The translations under genes and the position numbers were made by a program. The notes under the pieces are model-generated. The model worked only from the letters and a program-made list of their open reading frames with translations. It had not been told where the DNA came from and searched no databases. Positions 25,383-35,435 of a stretch of DNA of 64,000 nucleotides are shown one piece after another. Source of the DNA: Methylomagnum ishizawai. Its GTDB lineage: Bacteria; Pseudomonadota; Gammaproteobacteria; Methylococcales; Methylomonadaceae. The stretch is from contig CAMAVM010000004.1 in NCBI GenBank assembly GCA_945861705.1, positions 1 to 64,000 of the forward strand, written 5' to 3'. How positions within the stretch are numbered: position 1 is the first letter of the stretch; each line of letters begins with the position of its first letter.

Positions 25383-27404
25383 ATGACCAAATTAAACCCC
25401 CAGCAGCAAGCCGCTGTTAAAGTTGTCGAGTCTCCTTTGTTGGTGTTAGCGGGAGCCGGTAGCGGCAAAACGCGGGTCATTACCGAGAAAATTGCTTATT
25501 TGGTCAAGCAAGGATTACCTGCCCGTCATATTGCCGCCGTAACTTTTACTAATAAAGCTGCGCGAGAAATGAAAAGCCGCGTTGCCAAGTTGCTCGATAA
25601 GCAGCAGGCTCGTGGTTTGCGAGTCTGTACATTTCATGCTCTGGGACTGGAGATTGTCCGTAAAGAACACCATATATTGGGCTACAAGGCTGGGCTGACC
25701 TTATACGATGAGGAAGACAAATTAAAGCTGCTGAAAAATCTAATCGCTCATAGCAACAGCGATTGCGAAGGTGACAAGGTGGAGCAATACGCTAGTCAAA
25801 TCGGGCAATGGAAAAATGCTTTTGTTACCGTAAAGCAAGCTGAGTTGAATTCAATTGCAGACCAATCGGCAATCAGCCAACTTTATGCCGATTACACGCG
25901 CAGCTTAAAAGCCTATAATGCGGTCGATTTTGATGATTTGATTTTATTGCCTGTTTTGTTGTTTCAGCAGAATCCAGACATTTTAGAAAAATGGCAGAAC
26001 ACCATTCGCTATTTATTAGTGGATGAATACCAGGATACCAATATTACCCAGTACGAATTAGTCAAGGTGCTTGCCGGAAATCTGGGACGATTTACAGTAG
26101 TGGGTGATGACGACCAGTCGATTTACGCTTGGCGCGGCGCTCAACCGGAAAATTTAAGTCAGCTACAAAAAGATTATCCGCGCTTACAAGTGATTAAACT
26201 GGAACAGAATTACCGTTCTACTGGGCGAATACTTAAAGTGGCTAATCAGCTGATAGCCAATAACCCCCATACTTACGAAAAAAAGCTGTGGAGTGAGTTA
26301 GGTTACGGCGATCCACTGCGGGTGTTAAGCCATAAGGATGAGCTGACCGAAGCGCAGCAAATGGTTGCAGAATTGATTCATCATAAATTCAAGACGGGTG
26401 GCAGCTATCAGGATTATGCCATTTTATACCGTGGCAACCATCAGTCTAGGTTGTTTGAACGCGGACTGAGGGAAAACAATATCCCGTATTTTATTAGTGG
26501 CAGCACGTCGTTTTTCGCTTATTCCGAAATCAAGGACATGCTTGCTTATTTGCGGTTGCTGGTTAATCCCGATGACGATGCCGCTTTTTTGCGGATTATC
26601 AACACACCCAGGCGGGAACTAGGCCCGACGACTTTAGAAAAATTGGGCGCTTATGCCAATCATCGGCAAATCAGCCTGTTTGCCGCCAGTACCGAATTAG
26701 GCTTAAGCCAAACCGTGTCCAGTAAATCAATCGCTCGCTTAGAAAAATTTCACGATTGGATTATCGCTACCGCCGAACGCGTTGAGCGGGATGACACGTT
26801 TGCCGTCATCGAAAAAATGATTATCGAAATCGGCTATGAGCAATGGTTAAGGGAAAACAGCAAAACCAGCGAGTCGGCAGAGCGCAAAATGAGCAATGTG
26901 GCTGAATTAATCAACTGGCTTAAGCGCATTGCGGATAAAGACAGCAAGGAACAAAAGCCGTTAGCTGAAATTATCGCCAATATCATGTTGATGGATATTC
27001 TGGAACGCAATCAGGAAGAGGAAAGCGGCGATCAAGTGAGTTTGATGACCTTACATTCAGCTAAAGGCTTGGAATTCCAGCATGTATTTCTGGTAGGGAT
27101 GGAAGAAAACATCCTGCCTCACCAAAACACAATTGAATCAGACGACGTTAACGGCACGAACGGCATAGAAGAAGAGCGTCGGCTGGCTTATGTAGGTATC
27201 ACCCGCGCTCAACGCAGCTTAACATTTAGCTACTGCACTCACCGCAAGAAATATGGCGACATAATGGAATGCCAGCCCAGCCGTTTTCTGGGCGAATTGC
27301 CCGAAGATGACCTGGAATGGGTCAACAAAAAACAGCTGTCCTCGGAAGTAATAAAAGAGCGCGGCAAAGCCAATCTCGCCAACCTCAAAACAATGTTATC
27401 GTAA
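25383..27404 (+). CDS. rep: ATP-dependent DNA helicase Rep
   Basis: A UvrD/Rep superfamily 1A 3'-5' helicase that clears proteins ahead of the replication fork and helps restart. At 673 residues it has the same length as E. coli Rep and begins in the same way (MTKLNPQQQAAVKVVESP). Motifs in order: Walker A LAGAGSGKTRVI, Ia TFTNKAAREMKSR, II LLVDEYQDTN, III VVGDDDQSIYAWRGAQ, IV VIKLEQNYRST, V LMTLHSAKGLEFQHVFLVG, VI EEERRLAYVGITRAQ. A tRNA-Arg gene follows after 48 bases. Confidence 0.96.
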   Translation: MTKLNPQQQAAVKVVESPLLVLAGAGSGKTRVITEKIAYLVKQGLPARHIAAVTFTNKAAREMKSRVAKLLDKQQARGLRVCTFHALGLEIVRKEHHILGYKAGLTLYDEEDKLKLLKNLIAHSNSDCEGDKVEQYASQIGQWKNAFVTVKQAELNSIADQSAISQLYADYTRSLKAYNAVDFDDLILLPVLLFQQNPDILEKWQNTIRYLLVDEYQDTNITQYELVKVLAGNLGRFTVVGDDDQSIYAWRGAQPENLSQLQKDYPRLQVIKLEQNYRSTGRILKVANQLIANNPHTYEKKLWSELGYGDPLRVLSHKDELTEAQQMVAELIHHKFKTGGSYQDYAILYRGNHQSRLFERGLRENNIPYFISGSTSFFAYSEIKDMLAYLRLLVNPDDDAAFLRIINTPRRELGPTTLEKLGAYANHRQISLFAASTELGLSQTVSSKSIARLEKFHDWIIATAERVERDDTFAVIEKMIIEIGYEQWLRENSKTSESAERKMSNVAELINWLKRIADKDSKEQKPLAEIIANIMLMDILERNQEEESGDQVSLMTLHSAKGLEFQHVFLVGMEENILPHQNTIESDDVNGTNGIEEERRLAYVGITRAQRSLTFSYCTHRKKYGDIMECQPSRFLGELPEDDLEWVNKKQLSSEVIKERGKANLANLKTMLS

Positions 27405-27452: not shown

Positions 27453-27529
27453 GCGCCCGTAGCTCAGCTGGATAGAGCGCAGCCCTCCGGAGGCTGAGGT
27501 CAGAGGTTCGAATCCTCTCGGGCGCGCCA
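27453..27529 (+). tRNA. tRNA-Arg (anticodon CCG)
   Basis: A 77-base cloverleaf with encoded CCA. The acceptor stem GCGCCCG pairs with CGGGCGC; D arm AGCTCAGCTGGATAGAGC; anticodon stem CAGCC/GGCTG with loop CTCCGGA (anticodon CCG); T arm AGAGGTTCGAATCCTCT. The gene borders an accessory block (27.7-32.7 kb) that reads toward it. I found no second copy of its 3' end in the window, so use as an integration site is unproven. Confidence 0.97.
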
Positions 27530-27701
27530 CTTACTGCTTTCCGTGCTTCCACAAAGTCCAATAAGGTCTTTAAAAGTAAGCAAGCTGGCCTAATACACCT
27601 AAAGGCAGCAAATATTCTTCCCGCAATATTTCACCTGGATAGATTGGGCGCAAGCTATTTATTATCATTTCTCCTCGCGGTAATCCTCAGCATCAAAACC
27701 A

Positions 27702-30700
27702 TTATTTTAATATTGTTAAATCAGCTAAAAGTTTTTTCTGTGTTTGTATTCTATTATCAAACCAGTCGTTACTCCAGATACGAACAATCCGCCAGCCTTT
27801 ATTTTCTAGGATTTTTTGCCGCCATACATCATTTAATCTAGCCGTCCAGCTACTATGATATAGCCTACCATCACACTCTATTCCACACAGATATAGACTG
27901 TCGGTAGCATTTTTTTTGACACCTAAGTCAATGCGAAAGCCGCTTTCCCCAATTTGAAAATCCACGTGGAAACCGTTGTCTAGTAAAAAATCAGCAACAT
28001 CTTCTTCAAACTGGGAGTCTGCTTCTCCGTGAATTGCCGATTTTTGAAACTTAGGATTTAAGCTTTGCAAAATTAGGTTAGATGCTTTGGCATCACCCGA
28101 ACTAACGGCTCTTGCATAACACATGTATTTCCAAAACCAAAAATTTTCACTGTCATCGCGCTGTTTATCATTTGAAATGGCATCAATATTGAGCGATGAA
28201 TAAATAATCATTCCTGATTTGGCGCGTGTAATAGCGACATTTAAGCGTTTTCTGCCTTTTTCTTTTTTTGTAATGGCACCAAAGTTTTTTCTTACGCCGT
28301 CGTAAGCCGTTGAAAAAATAATAATATCTCTTTCATCGCCTTGTACATGTTCAACGCTTCGCACAAAAAAGCCAATATCTTCGCCATCTTTTATCTTGTT
28401 CCGTTCGCGCTCTAAACGACTAGCAAATTCAAGATTAACTTGAGTTTCCTCAAATAACAAATCATCAATAATATCCTTTTGCTTTACGTTAAGAGTAATG
28501 ACTCCCAAGGATAAAGAATCTTGTTGCTTCCATATATGCTTAATCCGCTTGATAACTGCCAATGCTTCCGCTTTATTTGTACCCGCTAAGGCTTGCCCAT
28601 TCTCAACCCTATTTAATTCAATGGGGGATTTAATAATATCGGGCAATTTCTTATTGCCGGTTGCAGCAATTAATTTGCCGTCATAAAACGCATGGTTAGA
28701 AAAATCGATTAATTCTTTGAATTCAGATCGATAATGCACAAGCAACATAGCGCGGTTAGGATTGCCTGTTTGAACGGAATATTCAGCTGCTTCCAAAAAG
28801 CAATACTCGCCGTCAGCGGGTATGAGACGGTTGTTGTCAACTATAGGCTCATCACTTTCCTCGTCGTCTTGGCCATCATCGGCATTTGCATCATCACTCA
28901 ATGACATAAAAAAATCGGAAGGCGGCATTTGCATCCTATCACCTGAAATAAAAACGCCCTTAGCACGATATAATAGTGGTAAAACATCAGCCATAAATAT
29001 CTGCGAAGCTTCATCAATAACCACTAAATCATAAAGGTTGGCCTTTAAATCTAAAATCGAACTAACCGTCTCAGGGTTCGTCATCAATACCGGATAAATT
29101 TGATGTAGCTCTTCAAAACCCGACGTGTATAGTTTCCGCAGCGATGTTTTTGGAGCTGTCTTTGATTTCCTAAGCCGCAAAAACAGCTTATTATCCAGTA
29201 CATTTTTTGCGCTAACCCTATTGTTGTACTGCGCTAAAATATGCTCAATATCCTCGTTACGCTTTTTCTCAACAACATTGGCAAGCTTGATTTTATGCTG
29301 TTCAACAGAAACGGTTGAAAAAGTCTTTTGGGAAGTTAGCTCATCTAGCCACGCTTGTAAGCAAAAGCATTCAATGATTTCAATCCAGTGCTGAATAATA
29401 TCGGGGGAATTTTTTTGTAATAATTCAAATATAGGGAATTTTTTTAATTTCTCTTTTATGTGTACCACTTGTTCAATATAACCACAATATTTCTGCAATT
29501 CCTGATAATGTTGTATTGCTTCGCCGGCACGTACAGAAGCTAAAACGCTATCTATATAGCGTCCATCCAGCCAATTTTTTAATTTTTGGGTATCAAGAGA
29601 GAGTTGTGTAAATTGTTTGTGGTTTTGCCGATATTCGCCTTGTAAAAAGCTCGGATAATAAGCTTCTGCCAAACCATGTTCAACTAACCAAACAAGGCTA
29701 GACTTATAAAAATAAGTGCTTTTATCCTCTAACGCTTGAGCAAGTGAATCCAAGCGCTTAAGTAAGATGTTAACCTCGCCAACGTTAGTAGGTGGATTTT
29801 GCAAGAATTTCCAAGGATTATCTTGGTAATTACAGTTTTGATAAGTACCTACAAAAGAACTGGTTTCTTTGATGAGTTCATCAAGAATATTTCGATTAGC
29901 TGGCAATAAGTCAATTTTTACACAGTGTCGATAGCAACTTTGCAAGTGCTCGTAAACATTAATGCCGTTTTTGTTTATCCGGTGTAATCTCGCTTTTATA
30001 TTCCCGTAAGTTGATCGTTGTCCTTTTTTATTGTCGGTAAAAAAATGATTCGATTTATCCAAAAATTCTTCGCAAGATTTTATGCTATCGCTAGTTGCCC
30101 TTCGTTGTATGTCAACCTGGGAAAAACCTCTTACCGCTAAAGAGTTTCCTTCGATTTCGCGGATTGATTTAATAATCCGCATCCTGTCTTTTTGCACATC
30201 TTCAATTAGCTGAAATGATTCGCCCAATCCGATAGCCGTTAAGCGTTTTTGTAAAACTTCCAATGCTGCTTTTTTTTGGCATACTACTAAAACTTTCTTT
30301 TGGTTAGCCAAGGCATCTGCAATCAAATTAACAATAACTTGGGATTTACCTGTGCCGGGCGGTCCTTGTAACACCATTAAGTCAAATTTTCGGGCATTCC
30401 AAAGTGCGGACTCTTGACTATGGTCTGAGTCTGTCACCAACCATTTATCATTTTCAGAGGGTGTAGGTGCAGGTATTTCCGATTTTAGCTTACGGGGGGT
30501 TAAAAAATAATCCAAGACTTTGCTATTATTTGAGTTTCCGCTAAATAGTTTTTCCAATTCGTCTAAATCAGCTAACAAGGCTTGCCCTTTAATCGGCATA
30601 TAACCAATCACTGCACTTGATAGAACCTTGGCTTCCGTTAGCTTCTCTAGCGCGTCTTTATTAGGAAGAGGATTAATTTGGCTAGAGTCAAATTCACTGA

Positions 30701-31331
30701 CACATTTTGGCAAAGCAGATAATGCGGCTTTGGTTTCGGATGTTATATTTTGCCAACATAATTCCTCGGCATTTTCCCACTTCAAATGAAGCCCTTTCTC
30801 ATGGGCTAACCCTACTTGCAAGATGCGGTTTAATTGCGGTTCTATAACAATGTCGTCTTCATCCCTAACTCGATCAAAAATAATTGAGCGTGCAGTTAGT
30901 TTGCAGGATACCGCCCATAAGAATAACGGAGCTAAATAATATTTACTTGAATCTAATGGAATGACAACAAAGGGATAACCTAAATATAAACCGAGTTGCC
31001 CCGTGCTGTGAAAAAAATCATCGGCTTCGTTCTTAATTTTGGTGCATTTCGCCAGATTCTTTTTATGGGCATTGATTACTTCAATTTTTTTAGGTGTTGA
31101 TGCCAATAGGTTCTTTAGAACATCTAGGGATGAGGTTGTGTTAAATTCAAAACCCATAGGCACAAGATCGTTTGATGAGTTTGATGGTAATTCAAATTCT
31201 GCCCTTGCTTTTACTAGCTCCGTCAAATCTTCACGATAAGCACTTTGTGTACGTTTAAGCAGTGGGTTGCGAGTAAGCAAACGCTTGATAAAGTGCTGTC
31301 GATGATCGTGTAAAATTTTGATGGCACTCAT
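27702..31331 (-). CDS. Large SF1 helicase fused to a PD-(D/E)XK nuclease; candidate defence protein
   Basis: A 1209-residue protein. The N-terminus has a DUF4011-like motif (IKRLLTRNPLLKR). A DNA2/NAM7-type superfamily 1 helicase follows: Walker A GPPGTGKS at 323-330, a long helical insertion (~residues 400-720), Walker B VIDEAS with D773-E774, then ISGDRMQMPPSDFF, MLLVHYRS, GVITLNVKQKDII, VEHVQGDERDIIIFS and RLNVAITRAKSGMIIYSS. The C-terminal ~110 residues are an MTES_1575-type PD-(D/E)XK nuclease: FEEDVADFLL, FRIDLGV (D1135), GIECDGRLYH (E1152, D1154), RQKILENKGWRIVRIWSNDWF. DUF4011-helicase-nuclease proteins occur in anti-phage systems. It starts 2 bases after the stop of the coiled-coil gene at 31334. 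Confidence 0.85.
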   Translation of the reverse strand: MSAIKILHDHRQHFIKRLLTRNPLLKRTQSAYREDLTELVKARAEFELPSNSSNDLVPMGFEFNTTSSLDVLKNLLASTPKKIEVINAHKKNLAKCTKIKNEADDFFHSTGQLGLYLGYPFVVIPLDSSKYYLAPLFLWAVSCKLTARSIIFDRVRDEDDIVIEPQLNRILQVGLAHEKGLHLKWENAEELCWQNITSETKAALSALPKCVSEFDSSQINPLPNKDALEKLTEAKVLSSAVIGYMPIKGQALLADLDELEKLFSGNSNNSKVLDYFLTPRKLKSEIPAPTPSENDKWLVTDSDHSQESALWNARKFDLMVLQGPPGTGKSQVIVNLIADALANQKKVLVVCQKKAALEVLQKRLTAIGLGESFQLIEDVQKDRMRIIKSIREIEGNSLAVRGFSQVDIQRRATSDSIKSCEEFLDKSNHFFTDNKKGQRSTYGNIKARLHRINKNGINVYEHLQSCYRHCVKIDLLPANRNILDELIKETSSFVGTYQNCNYQDNPWKFLQNPPTNVGEVNILLKRLDSLAQALEDKSTYFYKSSLVWLVEHGLAEAYYPSFLQGEYRQNHKQFTQLSLDTQKLKNWLDGRYIDSVLASVRAGEAIQHYQELQKYCGYIEQVVHIKEKLKKFPIFELLQKNSPDIIQHWIEIIECFCLQAWLDELTSQKTFSTVSVEQHKIKLANVVEKKRNEDIEHILAQYNNRVSAKNVLDNKLFLRLRKSKTAPKTSLRKLYTSGFEELHQIYPVLMTNPETVSSILDLKANLYDLVVIDEASQIFMADVLPLLYRAKGVFISGDRMQMPPSDFFMSLSDDANADDGQDDEESDEPIVDNNRLIPADGEYCFLEAAEYSVQTGNPNRAMLLVHYRSEFKELIDFSNHAFYDGKLIAATGNKKLPDIIKSPIELNRVENGQALAGTNKAEALAVIKRIKHIWKQQDSLSLGVITLNVKQKDIIDDLLFEETQVNLEFASRLERERNKIKDGEDIGFFVRSVEHVQGDERDIIIFSTAYDGVRKNFGAITKKEKGRKRLNVAITRAKSGMIIYSSLNIDAISNDKQRDDSENFWFWKYMCYARAVSSGDAKASNLILQSLNPKFQKSAIHGEADSQFEEDVADFLLDNGFHVDFQIGESGFRIDLGVKKNATDSLYLCGIECDGRLYHSSWTARLNDVWRQKILENKGWRIVRIWSNDWFDNRIQTQKKLLADLTILK

Positions 31332-31333
31332 GA

Positions 31334-31888
31334 TTATCTCAATAGGATAAAAGCCAAGACAGATAAAGCTGCTAACTGAAAAACGGCAAGCACTACCAGC
31401 CAGATAGAAAATTTCTTTTGTATTTTCAAAAAAATATCTTGTTTCTCTTCAATCAAATCAAACCGCCCTCCTTGAAATTTTTTGTTTTCGTGGGCATTTT
31501 GCAAAATTCTTTCGGCAAGGGCTTGAAGTTCTTTGGCTTGTTCCGATTTTGTGGTATTTGATTGATTTGTAAGAGTATCCCTTAGTTCGGATATGTTCTG
31601 CTCGATGTGGCGGCTAGAGTTTTGTTGGTTTTCGTGGGCATTTTGCAGGATTTTTTCGGCAAGGGCTTGAAGCTCTTTGGCTTGTTCCGATTTTGCGGAA
31701 TTTAAGAGACTTTCAGAATCTTTGCTTTTTTCTAATAACATCCATAATAAGGCTGGAAAAAAATCGTGTTCCGTTGCCTGTCCTTGTTCTAGGTTTTTAA
31801 CAGAGGGGAGTAGTTTTTCTTCAAGTTGTCGCAAGATTTTTTCTTTTTCCATGTGAAAGCCTATAAAATTGGTTGCCATAAAAGACAA
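31334..31888 (-). CDS. Coiled-coil protein with C-terminal membrane anchor; partner of the helicase-nuclease
   Basis: Up to 184 residues and mostly helical. A 22-residue segment (SEQAKELQALAEKILQNAHE) occurs twice, 48 residues apart, encoded by 66-bp near-identical repeats. The C-terminus is a transmembrane helix (IWLVVLAVFQLAALSVLAFILL) ending in Arg. The bulk therefore faces the cytoplasm as a tail-anchored rod. The stop lies 2 bases before the helicase ATG, so the two are coupled. The first ATG gives 184 residues, but MEKEKILRQLEEKLL at 31852 is an equally good start. I recognise no family; a membrane sensor or scaffold for the helicase-nuclease is an inference. Confidence 0.75.
   Translation of the reverse strand: MSFMATNFIGFHMEKEKILRQLEEKLLPSVKNLEQGQATEHDFFPALLWMLLEKSKDSESLLNSAKSEQAKELQALAEKILQNAHENQQNSSRHIEQNISELRDTLTNQSNTTKSEQAKELQALAERILQNAHENKKFQGGRFDLIEEKQDIFLKIQKKFSIWLVVLAVFQLAALSVLAFILLR
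31485..31694. repeat. 66-bp direct repeat inside the coiled-coil gene
   Basis: 31485-31550 and 31629-31694 are nearly identical (TTTTCGTGGGCATTTTGCA... through CTTGTTCCGATTTT), differing at only a few positions. The 144-base period is a whole number of codons, so copy number changes would keep the frame and alter the length of the coiled coil. Confidence 0.85.
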
Positions 31889-32105
31889 TTATTACAAACA
31901 CTTAGGTGTAAGGTTATTGATGTTACGATAAAGTGGATTACAAAAAAATTTTAATTAGCCTGACACTTGGGCTTTAAGGCATATTAATAAGTTATTAGCA
32001 CTTAGTATACGGTGATACAGCTAACCACATCAACCGCGAGGCACGGGAGTGCTGCAAAGGACATTGAGTTATAAGAAATTATACGCATTTACGGGATGAA
32101 GTTTT

Positions 32106-32336
32106 ATGAACCCAAGCTACCAACATATTATTACCATTGAACCCAGCAAACGGGGTGGAAAGCCTTGCATCAGGGGCTTGCGTATCACTGTCGATGATAT
32201 TCTTGATTATTTTGCGGCGGGCATGACCGAGCAAGAGATATTGGAGGACTTCGACTATTTGACCCACGAAGACATTCTGGCTTGCTTTGCTTTCGCAGCC
32301 GATAGGGAACGGCATACCCGTGAAATCAGCGGATGA
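32106..32336 (+). CDS. DUF433 antitoxin
   Basis: A 76-residue DUF433 protein: ITIEPSKRGGKPCIRGLRITVDDILDYFAAGMTEQEILEDFDYLTHEDILACFAFAADRE. These are winged-helix-like antitoxins paired with DUF5615 PIN-like toxins. The typical GGKPCIRGxRI motif is intact. The stop overlaps the start of the toxin gene by four bases (ATGA). It is divergent from the helicase-nuclease operon. Confidence 0.92.
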   Translation: MNPSYQHIITIEPSKRGGKPCIRGLRITVDDILDYFAAGMTEQEILEDFDYLTHEDILACFAFAADRERHTREISG

Positions 32337-32665
32337 AATTATTGTTTGATGAAAACCTTTCGCCTAAGCTTGTTCAAGCGTTAATTGATATTTTTCCCGA
32401 TTCGGTGCATGTTGACAGTATAGGTTTTGGCGGCAGTTCTGACGAAGACGTTTGGGACTACGCAAAAGCCATCGGGTTTTCTTTGGTAAGCAAGGATGCC
32501 GACTTTTACGATAAAAGCATGTTGTACGGACACCCGCCTAAAGGGATATGGATCAAACGCCGAAATTGCGCCAATCGGCAAATTCAATTGCTTTTGCGTA
32601 ACAAACTGGAAGCAATCAGTTCATTTATCCAGGACGATCAAGTATCGTTTATCGCTATCACATAA
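32333..32665 (+). CDS. DUF5615 PIN-like toxin
   Basis: A 110-residue protein of the DUF5615 (PIN-like/Mut7-C-like) family. It shows the N-terminal MKLLFDENLSPKLVQAL, the middle motif HVDSIGFGGSSDEDVWDYAKA, and LVSKDADFYDKSMLYGHPPKGIWIKRRNC. The acidic residues of the presumed nuclease site (D6, E7, then D in SKDADF) are present. Translationally coupled to the DUF433 gene; together they form a type II toxin-antitoxin module. Confidence 0.92.
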   Translation: MKLLFDENLSPKLVQALIDIFPDSVHVDSIGFGGSSDEDVWDYAKAIGFSLVSKDADFYDKSMLYGHPPKGIWIKRRNCANRQIQLLLRNKLEAISSFIQDDQVSFIAIT

Positions 32666-32722
32666 CAATATTTAAAGATCAGCCCTTAACAAATAGGCTT
32701 TTTTGTCCAAAAACGAGGGCAG

Positions 32723-32739
32723 CCCCATTTTAAATGGGG
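32723..32739. terminator. Short perfect hairpin after the DUF433/DUF5615 pair
   Basis: CCCCATTT / AAATGGGG with one loop base, 58 bases past the toxin stop. There is no T run, so it is a weak terminator candidate; it might also serve the converging minus-strand gene. Confidence 0.35.
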
Positions 32740-32891
32740 TAACTTTGGGGGTATTATTACACTAAACAGGCTGTAAACATTGATTTTACTTTAGTAGTGA
32801 GTCCTCTCGAAGTCATTTTCTTCAAGTAGAAAGATCGATAACAAGACAAACTGAGTTTTACTCTGCCTGCTAATCGCTCTCCTAAGCAAAA

Positions 32892-35435
32892 TTACTTTAT
32901 CTTTTGCGCCTGAATGGTAAATACGTCTACTAGGCGAAATTTTGGTAATGCGTTCATAGCAAAACTGGTTACGGGTGTGTCTATACCAATGACGTAGCCA
33001 GTCAAGGTATCTTCCGTGAGTTTAAAACGGATCATGTGTCGATAGGATTCGGAACGTGCGCCGCCGCCTGCTTCATTAGTATGACCATGAAAAGCCAGTG
33101 ATACAGCCAAATACCAGCCAAACCAGATACAGCTAAATATTGCACCTAACACAAATGCTGCCAGTAATCGCCAGCAATTGACAGCTATTGGATCGCCTAG
33201 GTGTGCTAACCATAACACGCAGATACCAATAATGACCCAAGCGGCAAAAAGCAGTGTACCGATTTTTTTCTGATCGGATAGAGAGAAATCTTTAATCAAA
33301 AATTCCTTAGTAAATAATTGTCCTGCCAAATAGGTGACGATTAAAGTAATGCTCGTAATGACTAGAATTGTTGTCCAGTCGCTGTATAACATCAAACAAA
33401 CCGGCACACAGACTTGTAATAGTGCATGCCAGACACCGATGATAGCGAATTTGATTTTGCCTGATGGTGGTAGCAAATGTGCGCCTGCAAATGCGGCAAG
33501 TGCAACTAAACCGACTGTTGCAAATAGCCAAACAACAACCATTACTAAGTCGAAGGTCATTATTGAAGCCGAATAAGCACCGTAGCGAAGAAAGCCGAAA
33601 ACGGCGTAAATGATGCCTAGAACATTGAAAACCCATAAGGGTACGGAAGCCCATGGTGGCTCACGGTTAAACCGAGCATAGCCGATTAAAATATTACTGT
33701 AACGACGGCTTAAACCGAATAAAACCATTGCGGCGACAAAGAACAAATCGATTAATGCGCCCGCTAAAAAAGAGTTGGGGAGTTCATCACGAGACCATTG
33801 GTTTAAAAAAAGCAAGGGTAAAAACCCAGCTAAAATCGGCAAAATATAAAGGCTAATTGTTCTGATCCACTCAGGATTGTAAGTGAGAGGGTCAGTTTTT
33901 TTGGTGCTGACTATTTTTTCAAAGTGGTCTGGTGTCTTCCAAAACCAATAACCCAACAATGCGCTGAACAATATTATGTATATTAAATCAAGGAAATAGG
34001 TGTTCGAGCAGCAGCTTTTGCCGAGAGTGATTGCGGTATCATCCAGAGCGACCTTAATGGTTGATAAAAAGTGCTGGCTTGAGTCGGTTGGCCTAAGATT
34101 ATCGGGGAGCAGTTTAAATAACGACCAAGTACTTTGGGGTACAGTGACGGCAAAATAACTCAGATACGCAATGAATGCGCCTGCTAGCCAAATATAACCG
34201 CCTTGCCAAATGCTGACTGGATTAAGAATGGATTGGGTAATTAATCGGTGAGAATCCTTTCGAGACGGATAGATGGCTTGTTTTTGTACCTCATCAACAT
34301 CCGTGTGGCTAGGGTGTAAAAAAGCACCACCACCACCAGCTACCACCGACGCATAATTTGTCGGCTTGCTATCATTTAGTGAATTGCCCCAATATCGTTC
34401 ATAGTGGTGAATATCGCCAGAAATATCGAGTCGGCATTTGTTCTTAGGCAACGCGCCAGCTTTATCTTTTAAGAAACTGGCTTCTAAGCCAAGACGCGCA
34501 AAGGTTTTTGCAATAGCACCATCTGGTTCAGCCCAGCGACCAAAAACGGTACTGGGTTCTGGCGTGGTGACAATTAACTTACTCGGCACACGTTCACCCA
34601 AGGTTTCCAGCACATTATTTTGATTTTTTATGTCGAACAAATCGCCTTTTCTTACTAGCTCAGGGTCAAAAATGGACACAAAAAAAGCCTGTTGTCGCTT
34701 ATCCAATTTGCCTTCTTGAGAATCAAGCCCCCAGAGCCACCAGTCAAAAGGCAATTGTAAGGCGACATAACTTGCTGTTTGCTTCCGCTCAAATCCTAAC
34801 AAGCCAAGTTGCGGGTCTTTCGGGTCATTAAGTAAGGGATTGTGGGTGTCATCAGTAATTGGCTTACAGAACTGACGGTTAAAGCCATGTAAAGCATCAT
34901 AATAATCGTGATTGGCAGGAACGCCGTATATAGGACGCTGATCGACAGCCTTGTTGGTACGGATAATATCCAAGGCAGCGCAATTGAAAGGGGTTTGGAA
35001 ACGTTCTTTCAGAGAAGCAGTATCGGCAATATGGTAAGCTGCATCACCACCGACAAATAGAAATTCGCCGCGCGGCAAGTGCTGAGTACACGTAGAATCT
35101 TGGGCTAACGCAACGCTGTCTGCACCTAAGTTACTGTTTTTGTCTATCCAAAGCTCGCTCATACACAGATACGCGATGTTGTAGACGGCACTCATGCCAT
35201 CTCCGGTATCTGCTATGTAATCAAACCAATAAGGATCTGTTGCATTGTTGTTGCTTCGTGGCGGTGTAATGGTAGCAGTATTCATCCAATCCTTAGGATC
35301 TTGCTTGTTGCCCATGAAGGTATAGGCGGCAATCCATTTCAAACCAGCGAGGAGTTCTCGCCCCATTAACCAGCTAACCGGGCGTTTAAAATTTTTTCTA
35401 TTGCAGCCGTTGTCGTTGTTGTTATTATCGTTCAT
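32892..35435 (-). CDS. Metallophosphoesterase fused to a multi-pass membrane domain
   Basis: An 847-residue protein. The first ~400 residues hold calcineurin-like metal motifs: D-Y-I-A-D76-T-G-D79, FLFVGGDAAYHIA, GVPANHDYYDALHGFN (Ala instead of the Gly of GNHD) and DISGDIHHYERYW. The remainder has about ten to twelve hydrophobic helices (IWLAGAFIAYLSYFAV, LIYIILFSALLGYWFW, LYILPILAGFLPLLFL and others). The N-terminus is Asn-rich (NDNNNNDN) without a signal peptide, so the phosphoesterase half is probably cytoplasmic. Possible substrates include nucleotides, phospholipid head groups or isoprenyl phosphates. It is a single-gene unit divergent from hrpA. Confidence 0.75.
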   Translation of the reverse strand: MNDNNNNDNGCNRKNFKRPVSWLMGRELLAGLKWIAAYTFMGNKQDPKDWMNTATITPPRSNNNATDPYWFDYIADTGDGMSAVYNIAYLCMSELWIDKNSNLGADSVALAQDSTCTQHLPRGEFLFVGGDAAYHIADTASLKERFQTPFNCAALDIIRTNKAVDQRPIYGVPANHDYYDALHGFNRQFCKPITDDTHNPLLNDPKDPQLGLLGFERKQTASYVALQLPFDWWLWGLDSQEGKLDKRQQAFFVSIFDPELVRKGDLFDIKNQNNVLETLGERVPSKLIVTTPEPSTVFGRWAEPDGAIAKTFARLGLEASFLKDKAGALPKNKCRLDISGDIHHYERYWGNSLNDSKPTNYASVVAGGGGAFLHPSHTDVDEVQKQAIYPSRKDSHRLITQSILNPVSIWQGGYIWLAGAFIAYLSYFAVTVPQSTWSLFKLLPDNLRPTDSSQHFLSTIKVALDDTAITLGKSCCSNTYFLDLIYIILFSALLGYWFWKTPDHFEKIVSTKKTDPLTYNPEWIRTISLYILPILAGFLPLLFLNQWSRDELPNSFLAGALIDLFFVAAMVLFGLSRRYSNILIGYARFNREPPWASVPLWVFNVLGIIYAVFGFLRYGAYSASIMTFDLVMVVVWLFATVGLVALAAFAGAHLLPPSGKIKFAIIGVWHALLQVCVPVCLMLYSDWTTILVITSITLIVTYLAGQLFTKEFLIKDFSLSDQKKIGTLLFAAWVIIGICVLWLAHLGDPIAVNCWRLLAAFVLGAIFSCIWFGWYLAVSLAFHGHTNEAGGGARSESYRHMIRFKLTEDTLTGYVIGIDTPVTSFAMNALPKFRLVDVFTIQAQKIK

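Follow-up and report, generated by a model that had tools for sequence, protein, structure and literature searches.

A candidate two-gene variant of DUF4011 helicase-nuclease defense with a predicted tail-anchored membrane partner

Relation to described helicase-nuclease and membrane-localized systems

The curated relatives of the helicase-nuclease described here, ProA, Hhe, and PDC-S37, are annotated as anti-phage proteins. ProA and PDC-S37 contain DUF4011, an SF1 helicase, and an MTES_1575 nuclease, in that order, and the NCBIfam model of ProA (NF058533) is 1903 amino acids in length. Hhe (NF042953, PDLC02194; 1797-amino acid model) likewise combines DUF4011 and a helicase with a Vsr-type nuclease. 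The DUF4011 family is not exclusively defensive, since some members are core genes that merely flank the defense hotspot cDHS1 of P. aeruginosa (PMC10250203). Within the excerpts of DUF4011-naming literature covered by an incomplete search, no membrane partner of DUF4011 proteins is mentioned. Zorya, Kiwa, and SNIPE place DNA-targeting proteins at the inner membrane, which allows action on DNA at its entry (PMC12904381), and SNIPE provides a precedent for membrane-localized DNA-targeting defense (PMC13190303). Only a handful of examples of self/non-self discrimination by membrane location are known.

We analyzed a 64-kb stretch of DNA (the window) from a relative of methane-oxidizing bacteria, in which the initial annotation had noted a membrane protein gene adjoining a helicase-nuclease gene and had linked the latter to DUF4011 systems such as Hhe. 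This link holds at the level of domains, which occur in the same order as in ProA and PDC-S37, but the protein is not Hhe itself (355.8 bits against an NCBIfam equivalog cut-off of 2000). Its best matches are ProA and PDC-S37 (PADLOC), at 451 and 464 bits; the ProA score (450.7) falls below the equivalog cut-off of 1500 bits, whereas a protein from the same bacterial family (L023) reaches 2090. The window protein is 1209 amino acids in length and lacks both the additional length of the long relatives and a match to DUF3320, which was seen in one of them. The ProA-matching relatives (L023 and L122) are single proteins of 1577–1745 amino acids without such a partner, and an Hhe-like relative (L136) also has no partner adjoining; in contrast, all four close copies of the window helicase have one. 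Because the helicase fails the ProA and Hhe cut-offs, is without the additional length and DUF3320, and never occurs alone, the pair is best read, from sequence comparison, as a new two-gene variant of DUF4011 helicase-nuclease defense.

The pair also differs from described membrane-localized systems. With SNIPE it may share a principle, namely a membrane-held nuclease that meets phage DNA at entry, and in both the membrane-proximal region varies in sequence and length (PMC13190303). However, SNIPE is one protein with a GIY-YIG nuclease and DUF4041, neither of which has a Pfam match in the window pair. Kiwa and Zorya similarly combine membrane protein(s) with DNA-targeting partner(s), but neither window protein has a Kiwa or ZorB-type match, and the MotAB-like ZorA/ZorB pair of Zorya is represented only by a 15.5-bit match of the partner to ZorA, restricted to the coil. 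Mokosh (MkoA and MkoC) also has a helicase of the AAA_11/AAA_12 type, to which the window helicase has a 101-bit match (MkoA); its phospholipase D-type nuclease domain was not found in the window pair, whose nuclease is Vsr-like. Identification of the partner as ribosomal L17, ZorA, or LeoBC was rejected, as these matches either fell short of the cut-off or were weak and limited to the coil.

Sequence features of the two proteins

The helicase-nuclease gene (27702–31331, minus strand) encodes 1209 amino acids from an ATG start, and has a DUF4011-like N-terminus, an SF1-type helicase core, and a C-terminal Vsr-like (MTES_1575) PD-(D/E)XK nuclease. All four Pfam matches are above curated cut-offs (E-values of 1.3e-28 for the MTES_1575 REase, 2.3e-20 for AAA_12, 8.6e-16 for AAA_11, and 5.7e-6 for DUF4011), with 99.3 bits for PF18741 (cut-off 38.2), 73 for PF13087 (cut-off 27), and 59 for PF13086 (cut-off 27). 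The match to DUF4011 (PF13195; residues 43–171, 30819–31205) is partial, at 26.8 bits against a cut-off of 22.2, while the long relatives score 122–176 bits. As stated in the initial annotation, the Walker A motif (GPPGTGKS, residues 323–330; 30342–30365), the Walker B motif (D773-E774; 29010–29015), and the nuclease residues D1135, E1152, and D1154 within the MTES_1575 domain (residues 1108–1205; 27717–28010) are present, and none of them varies among the four closest homologues. Across 41 relatives, D773, D1135, and D1154 are retained in every protein and E774 and E1152 in 40. The QG..R and N...(T/S)R motifs of AAA_12, the second RecA-like helicase domain (residues 857–1045; 28197–28763), are invariant or nearly so. 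The nearest PDB sequences to the helicase core are IGHMBP2 and Upf1-type helicases, and the match to Dna2 is weak. An AlphaFold2 model built from four rows, which are too few homologues, was unusable (pLDDT 33, pTM 0.24). By sequence, the protein is an SF1 helicase of the Upf1/IGHMBP2-like type that carries a weak DUF4011 region and ends in a Vsr-like nuclease.

The partner gene was originally listed as an open reading frame at 31334–31888 (minus strand), 2 bases from the helicase gene and encoding 184 residues from a TTG at 31888. The two frames exist as described, but the start and length of the partner require correction. As all of the homologues begin at a position matching ATG 31852 (MEKEKILRQLE or similar), and as TAGGCTTTCA immediately precedes this ATG and is conserved in three of the four copies, the true start is almost certainly ATG 31852. 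This gives a gene at 31334–31852 and a protein of 172 amino acids. A structural model of low-to-medium confidence (mean pLDDT 66) has helices at residues 2–22, 28–50, and 56–171, the first two forming a predicted hairpin and the third a single long helix. Together with hydropathy, this model agrees with the earlier description of the partner as helical with a C-terminal membrane helix. Lysines precede the hydrophobic helix and only two or three residues follow it, which makes a cytoplasmic N-terminus likely.

Three parts of the partner can be distinguished. The head (residues 1–50; 31703–31852), which has an EHD motif at residues 28–30, is 54–82% identical among the four copies, with dN of 0.10–0.38 and dS of at least 0.8. 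The coiled-coil stalk (31403–31702) is 17–23% identical between copies, and total length ranges from 166 to 240 amino acids. In the window copy, a 91-nt direct duplication (31478–31568 and 31622–31712, 87% alike) lies mostly within the stalk. These values indicate that the head is under purifying selection and that the stalk is nearly free to vary in both sequence and length. The predicted C-terminal transmembrane anchor (residues 152–170; 31343–31399) is only 23–46% identical between copies, and has an invariant W151-x7-Q159 pattern.

A similar anchor occurs in the CCDC90-like or DUF1640 family (PF07798; MCUR1, CCDC90B, and prokaryotic relatives), whose members are described as having a C-terminal stalk and as residing integrally in the membranes of prokaryotes and mitochondria (PMC4786415). 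Like the partner, these proteins have a coiled coil and one C-terminal membrane helix with a W-x7-Q pattern. Comparison of the two anchors by hhalign gave a probability of 83–87%, which none of 200 column shuffles reached, against a comparison set that is selected, as its members came from a search with the partner's own profile. The heads of the two differ, however, and none of the four partners matched the whole-family model PF07798, even at E-values up to 1. Several CCDC90-like genes in related genomes (L181, L182, L185, L186, L188, and L191) carry the partner's anchor motif, and all three of those scanned pass PF07798.

Conservation of the pair and its genomic setting

The helicase-nuclease and the partner are consistently paired. 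In addition to the window protein, close full-length homologues of the helicase (59–70% identity) occur in three further genomes of the family, those of Candidatus Methylobacter favarea, a Methylomonas-labelled MAG, and an uncultured proteobacterium. These four members (59–100% identical) belong to four genera and lie at four different chromosomal sites. In each, the coiled-coil/membrane gene is directly upstream of the helicase gene, overlapping it by as many as 4 bases or separated from it by up to 4. In a tree of 41 helicase proteins, the four paired ones form one clade (SH-aLRT 100) on a long branch from the rest, and no comparable neighbour occurs beside any of the 37 more distant relatives examined (up to 2366 amino acids). 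The pair is sporadic, occurring in four of 237 genomes of the family, and no helicase of this clade was found without its partner. Inherited gene order was rejected as an explanation of the pairing, because the four copies have four separate sets of neighbours. For the three copies outside the window, these are mostly housekeeping genes rather than other defense genes. We are highly confident that the two genes constitute a functional unit.

When 311 genomes of the order were searched with a profile of the partner, the same four copies were recovered along with one further place, in another family (contig 262 of G1044, 26644–27337; L192, 1492–2197). A decayed pair is found there, consisting of a 73-codon head, a frame-broken stalk, a membrane helix, 5 bases, and a truncated helicase N-terminus. 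The head is a weak match on its own (E 0.0085), and the helicase N-terminus is 30% identical to that of the window (E 6e-9, pairwise). The presence of this pair in another family suggests that the association is old or has moved between families. The two-gene proposal of the initial annotation, which would fall if helicase homologues never occurred with the coiled-coil gene, is thus supported by all four close homologues, at unrelated sites, and by one decayed pair. The remaining weak matches in this search cover the stalk and anchor only, and no orphan partner with a head was found in the 311 genomes.

Other collections were also searched. A profile scan of genome contigs yielded three loci, all paired, and a single-sequence scan of genome contigs found nothing. 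The partner was absent from the plasmids searched, and plasmid relatives of the helicase are all below 60% identity, the best covering 88% at 29% identity. No relative of either protein was detected in the viral contigs scanned, and none in E. coli genomes searched at the DNA level. A promoter and terminator scan returned sites no commoner than in shuffled sequences.

In the window, the pair lies within a 5.3-kb insertion (27536–32813) located 3' of a tRNA-Arg(CCG) gene (27453–27529, plus strand). In a genome of the same genus (G003), rep, tRNA-Arg, and the downstream region are contiguous without this segment. The sequence TCCTCTCG, a repeat of the 3' part of the tRNA (27513–27520), recurs at the right junction (32802–32809, plus strand), and these are its only two copies in the window. 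The insertion has a GC content of about 38%, compared to about 45% in its flanks. In another relative (G006), a P4-type integrase-like open reading frame, read from sequence (L167, 3–533), directly follows the same tRNA-Arg, which seems to be a hotspot of integration in this genus. Given the absence from G003, the repeat, the integrase-like frame, and the lower GC content, the segment is a small island acquired at a site of integration beside a tRNA gene.

The tRNA gene and toxin-antitoxin pair noted initially beside the two genes are both present. The latter, of DUF433/DUF5615 type, is carried on the insertion and lies outside the conserved unit. A different toxin-antitoxin-like pair adjoins the copy in G032, and no such pair was seen next to the two remaining copies; inclusion of these genes in the system was rejected on this basis, and they are probably passengers. 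A gene for an 847-amino acid membrane protein (32892–35435, minus strand) has no Pfam, PADLOC, or NCBIfam match, and in its counterpart in G003 a central stretch of about 2.1 kb is missing, so that a frame of 153 amino acids remains.

Possible functions of the pair

A role in defense is probable for the pair. The curated anti-phage relatives, the insertion beside a tRNA gene, and the sporadic presence speak for it; the mostly housekeeping neighbours of the other three copies and the core DUF4011 genes at cDHS1 speak against it. We further consider it somewhat better than an even chance that the partner tethers the helicase-nuclease at the inner membrane, within a mobile two-gene unit directed against phage or mobile DNA. 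The first gene would produce a tail-anchored protein whose helical-hairpin head lies in the cytoplasm on a coiled-coil stalk that varies in length, with a single C-terminal helix in the inner membrane, and the second, translationally coupled gene would produce the helicase with its terminal Vsr-like nuclease. The conserved head would dock the helicase-nuclease and hold it at the inner membrane, probably as an oligomer. There the helicase would load on incoming or replicating foreign DNA, which the nuclease would then cut. Conservation of the head and freedom of the stalk to change are expected if the former is a docking site and the latter a spacer, and the helicase-nuclease is the proposed cargo because it is the partner's only constant companion. 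Binding of the head to the helicase, location at the membrane, DNA as the substrate, and the defense role are all points that we infer.

The membrane helix could instead belong to an effector. The helicase-nuclease would then sense phage nucleic acid, with the nuclease as sensor or amplifier, and the partner would oligomerize and damage the membrane in abortive infection. The consistent pairing is compatible with such a division of labor, and a single membrane helix on a possibly oligomerizing coiled coil would suit a pore-former or membrane disruptor. This appears unlikely to us, as the nuclease retains all of its catalytic residues, such that the unit already has an effector, and as conservation in the partner is highest in its cytoplasmic head, the divergence of the anchor being odd for a pore. 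It is similarly improbable that the partner is an antitoxin-like inhibitor or a scaffold that holds a dangerous helicase-nuclease in an inactive or correctly oligomeric state, with the membrane helix being secondary. The upstream, coupled position of the partner gene is the usual antitoxin order, and a helicase of this clade without its partner has not been found; however, a membrane anchor would be superfluous in an inhibitor but is kept in each of the four intact copies and in the decayed copy, and about 37 relatives of the helicase do without a partner.

A function outside defense, as a membrane-associated enzyme of DNA or RNA repair or processing, or as a maintenance gene of a small integrative element, would agree with the resemblance of the helicase core to Upf1/IGHMBP2-type enzymes and, weakly, to Dna2, and with an island at a tRNA gene that has an integrase-like frame beside it in G006. 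We regard this as a doubtful account, since the closest curated families are anti-phage proteins and the sporadic presence of the pair argues against housekeeping.

If tethering is correct, the membrane-location strategy arose again, through one small adaptor gene, in the large DUF4011 helicase-nuclease family. We suggest tentatively, with rather less than even confidence, that this would be the first DUF4011 helicase-nuclease to act from the membrane, that its tail-anchored adaptor, docking the enzyme by the conserved head and having an exchangeable stalk of differing length, would allow self and foreign DNA to be told apart by place (the entry point) instead of by sequence or modification, and that it originated independently of Zorya, Kiwa, and SNIPE. 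Nature would then provide a clean test, since enzymes of the same kind occur both with a tether and without one, and stalk length varies.

Other arrangements were observed among the relatives of the helicase. In G715, a 73-amino acid coiled-coil open reading frame without a membrane helix (L128, just upstream of 10244) lies 50 bases upstream of a 1542-amino acid relative, and in G034 a long helicase-nuclease relative is broken by a transposase-like gene (L144, 6321–9297). On the Rhizobium plasmid pRL1 (L025, 6357–13607), DUF4011 and the helicase-nuclease of a relative are encoded by two separate genes, followed downstream by a third gene that overlaps, and this is possibly another multi-gene arrangement.
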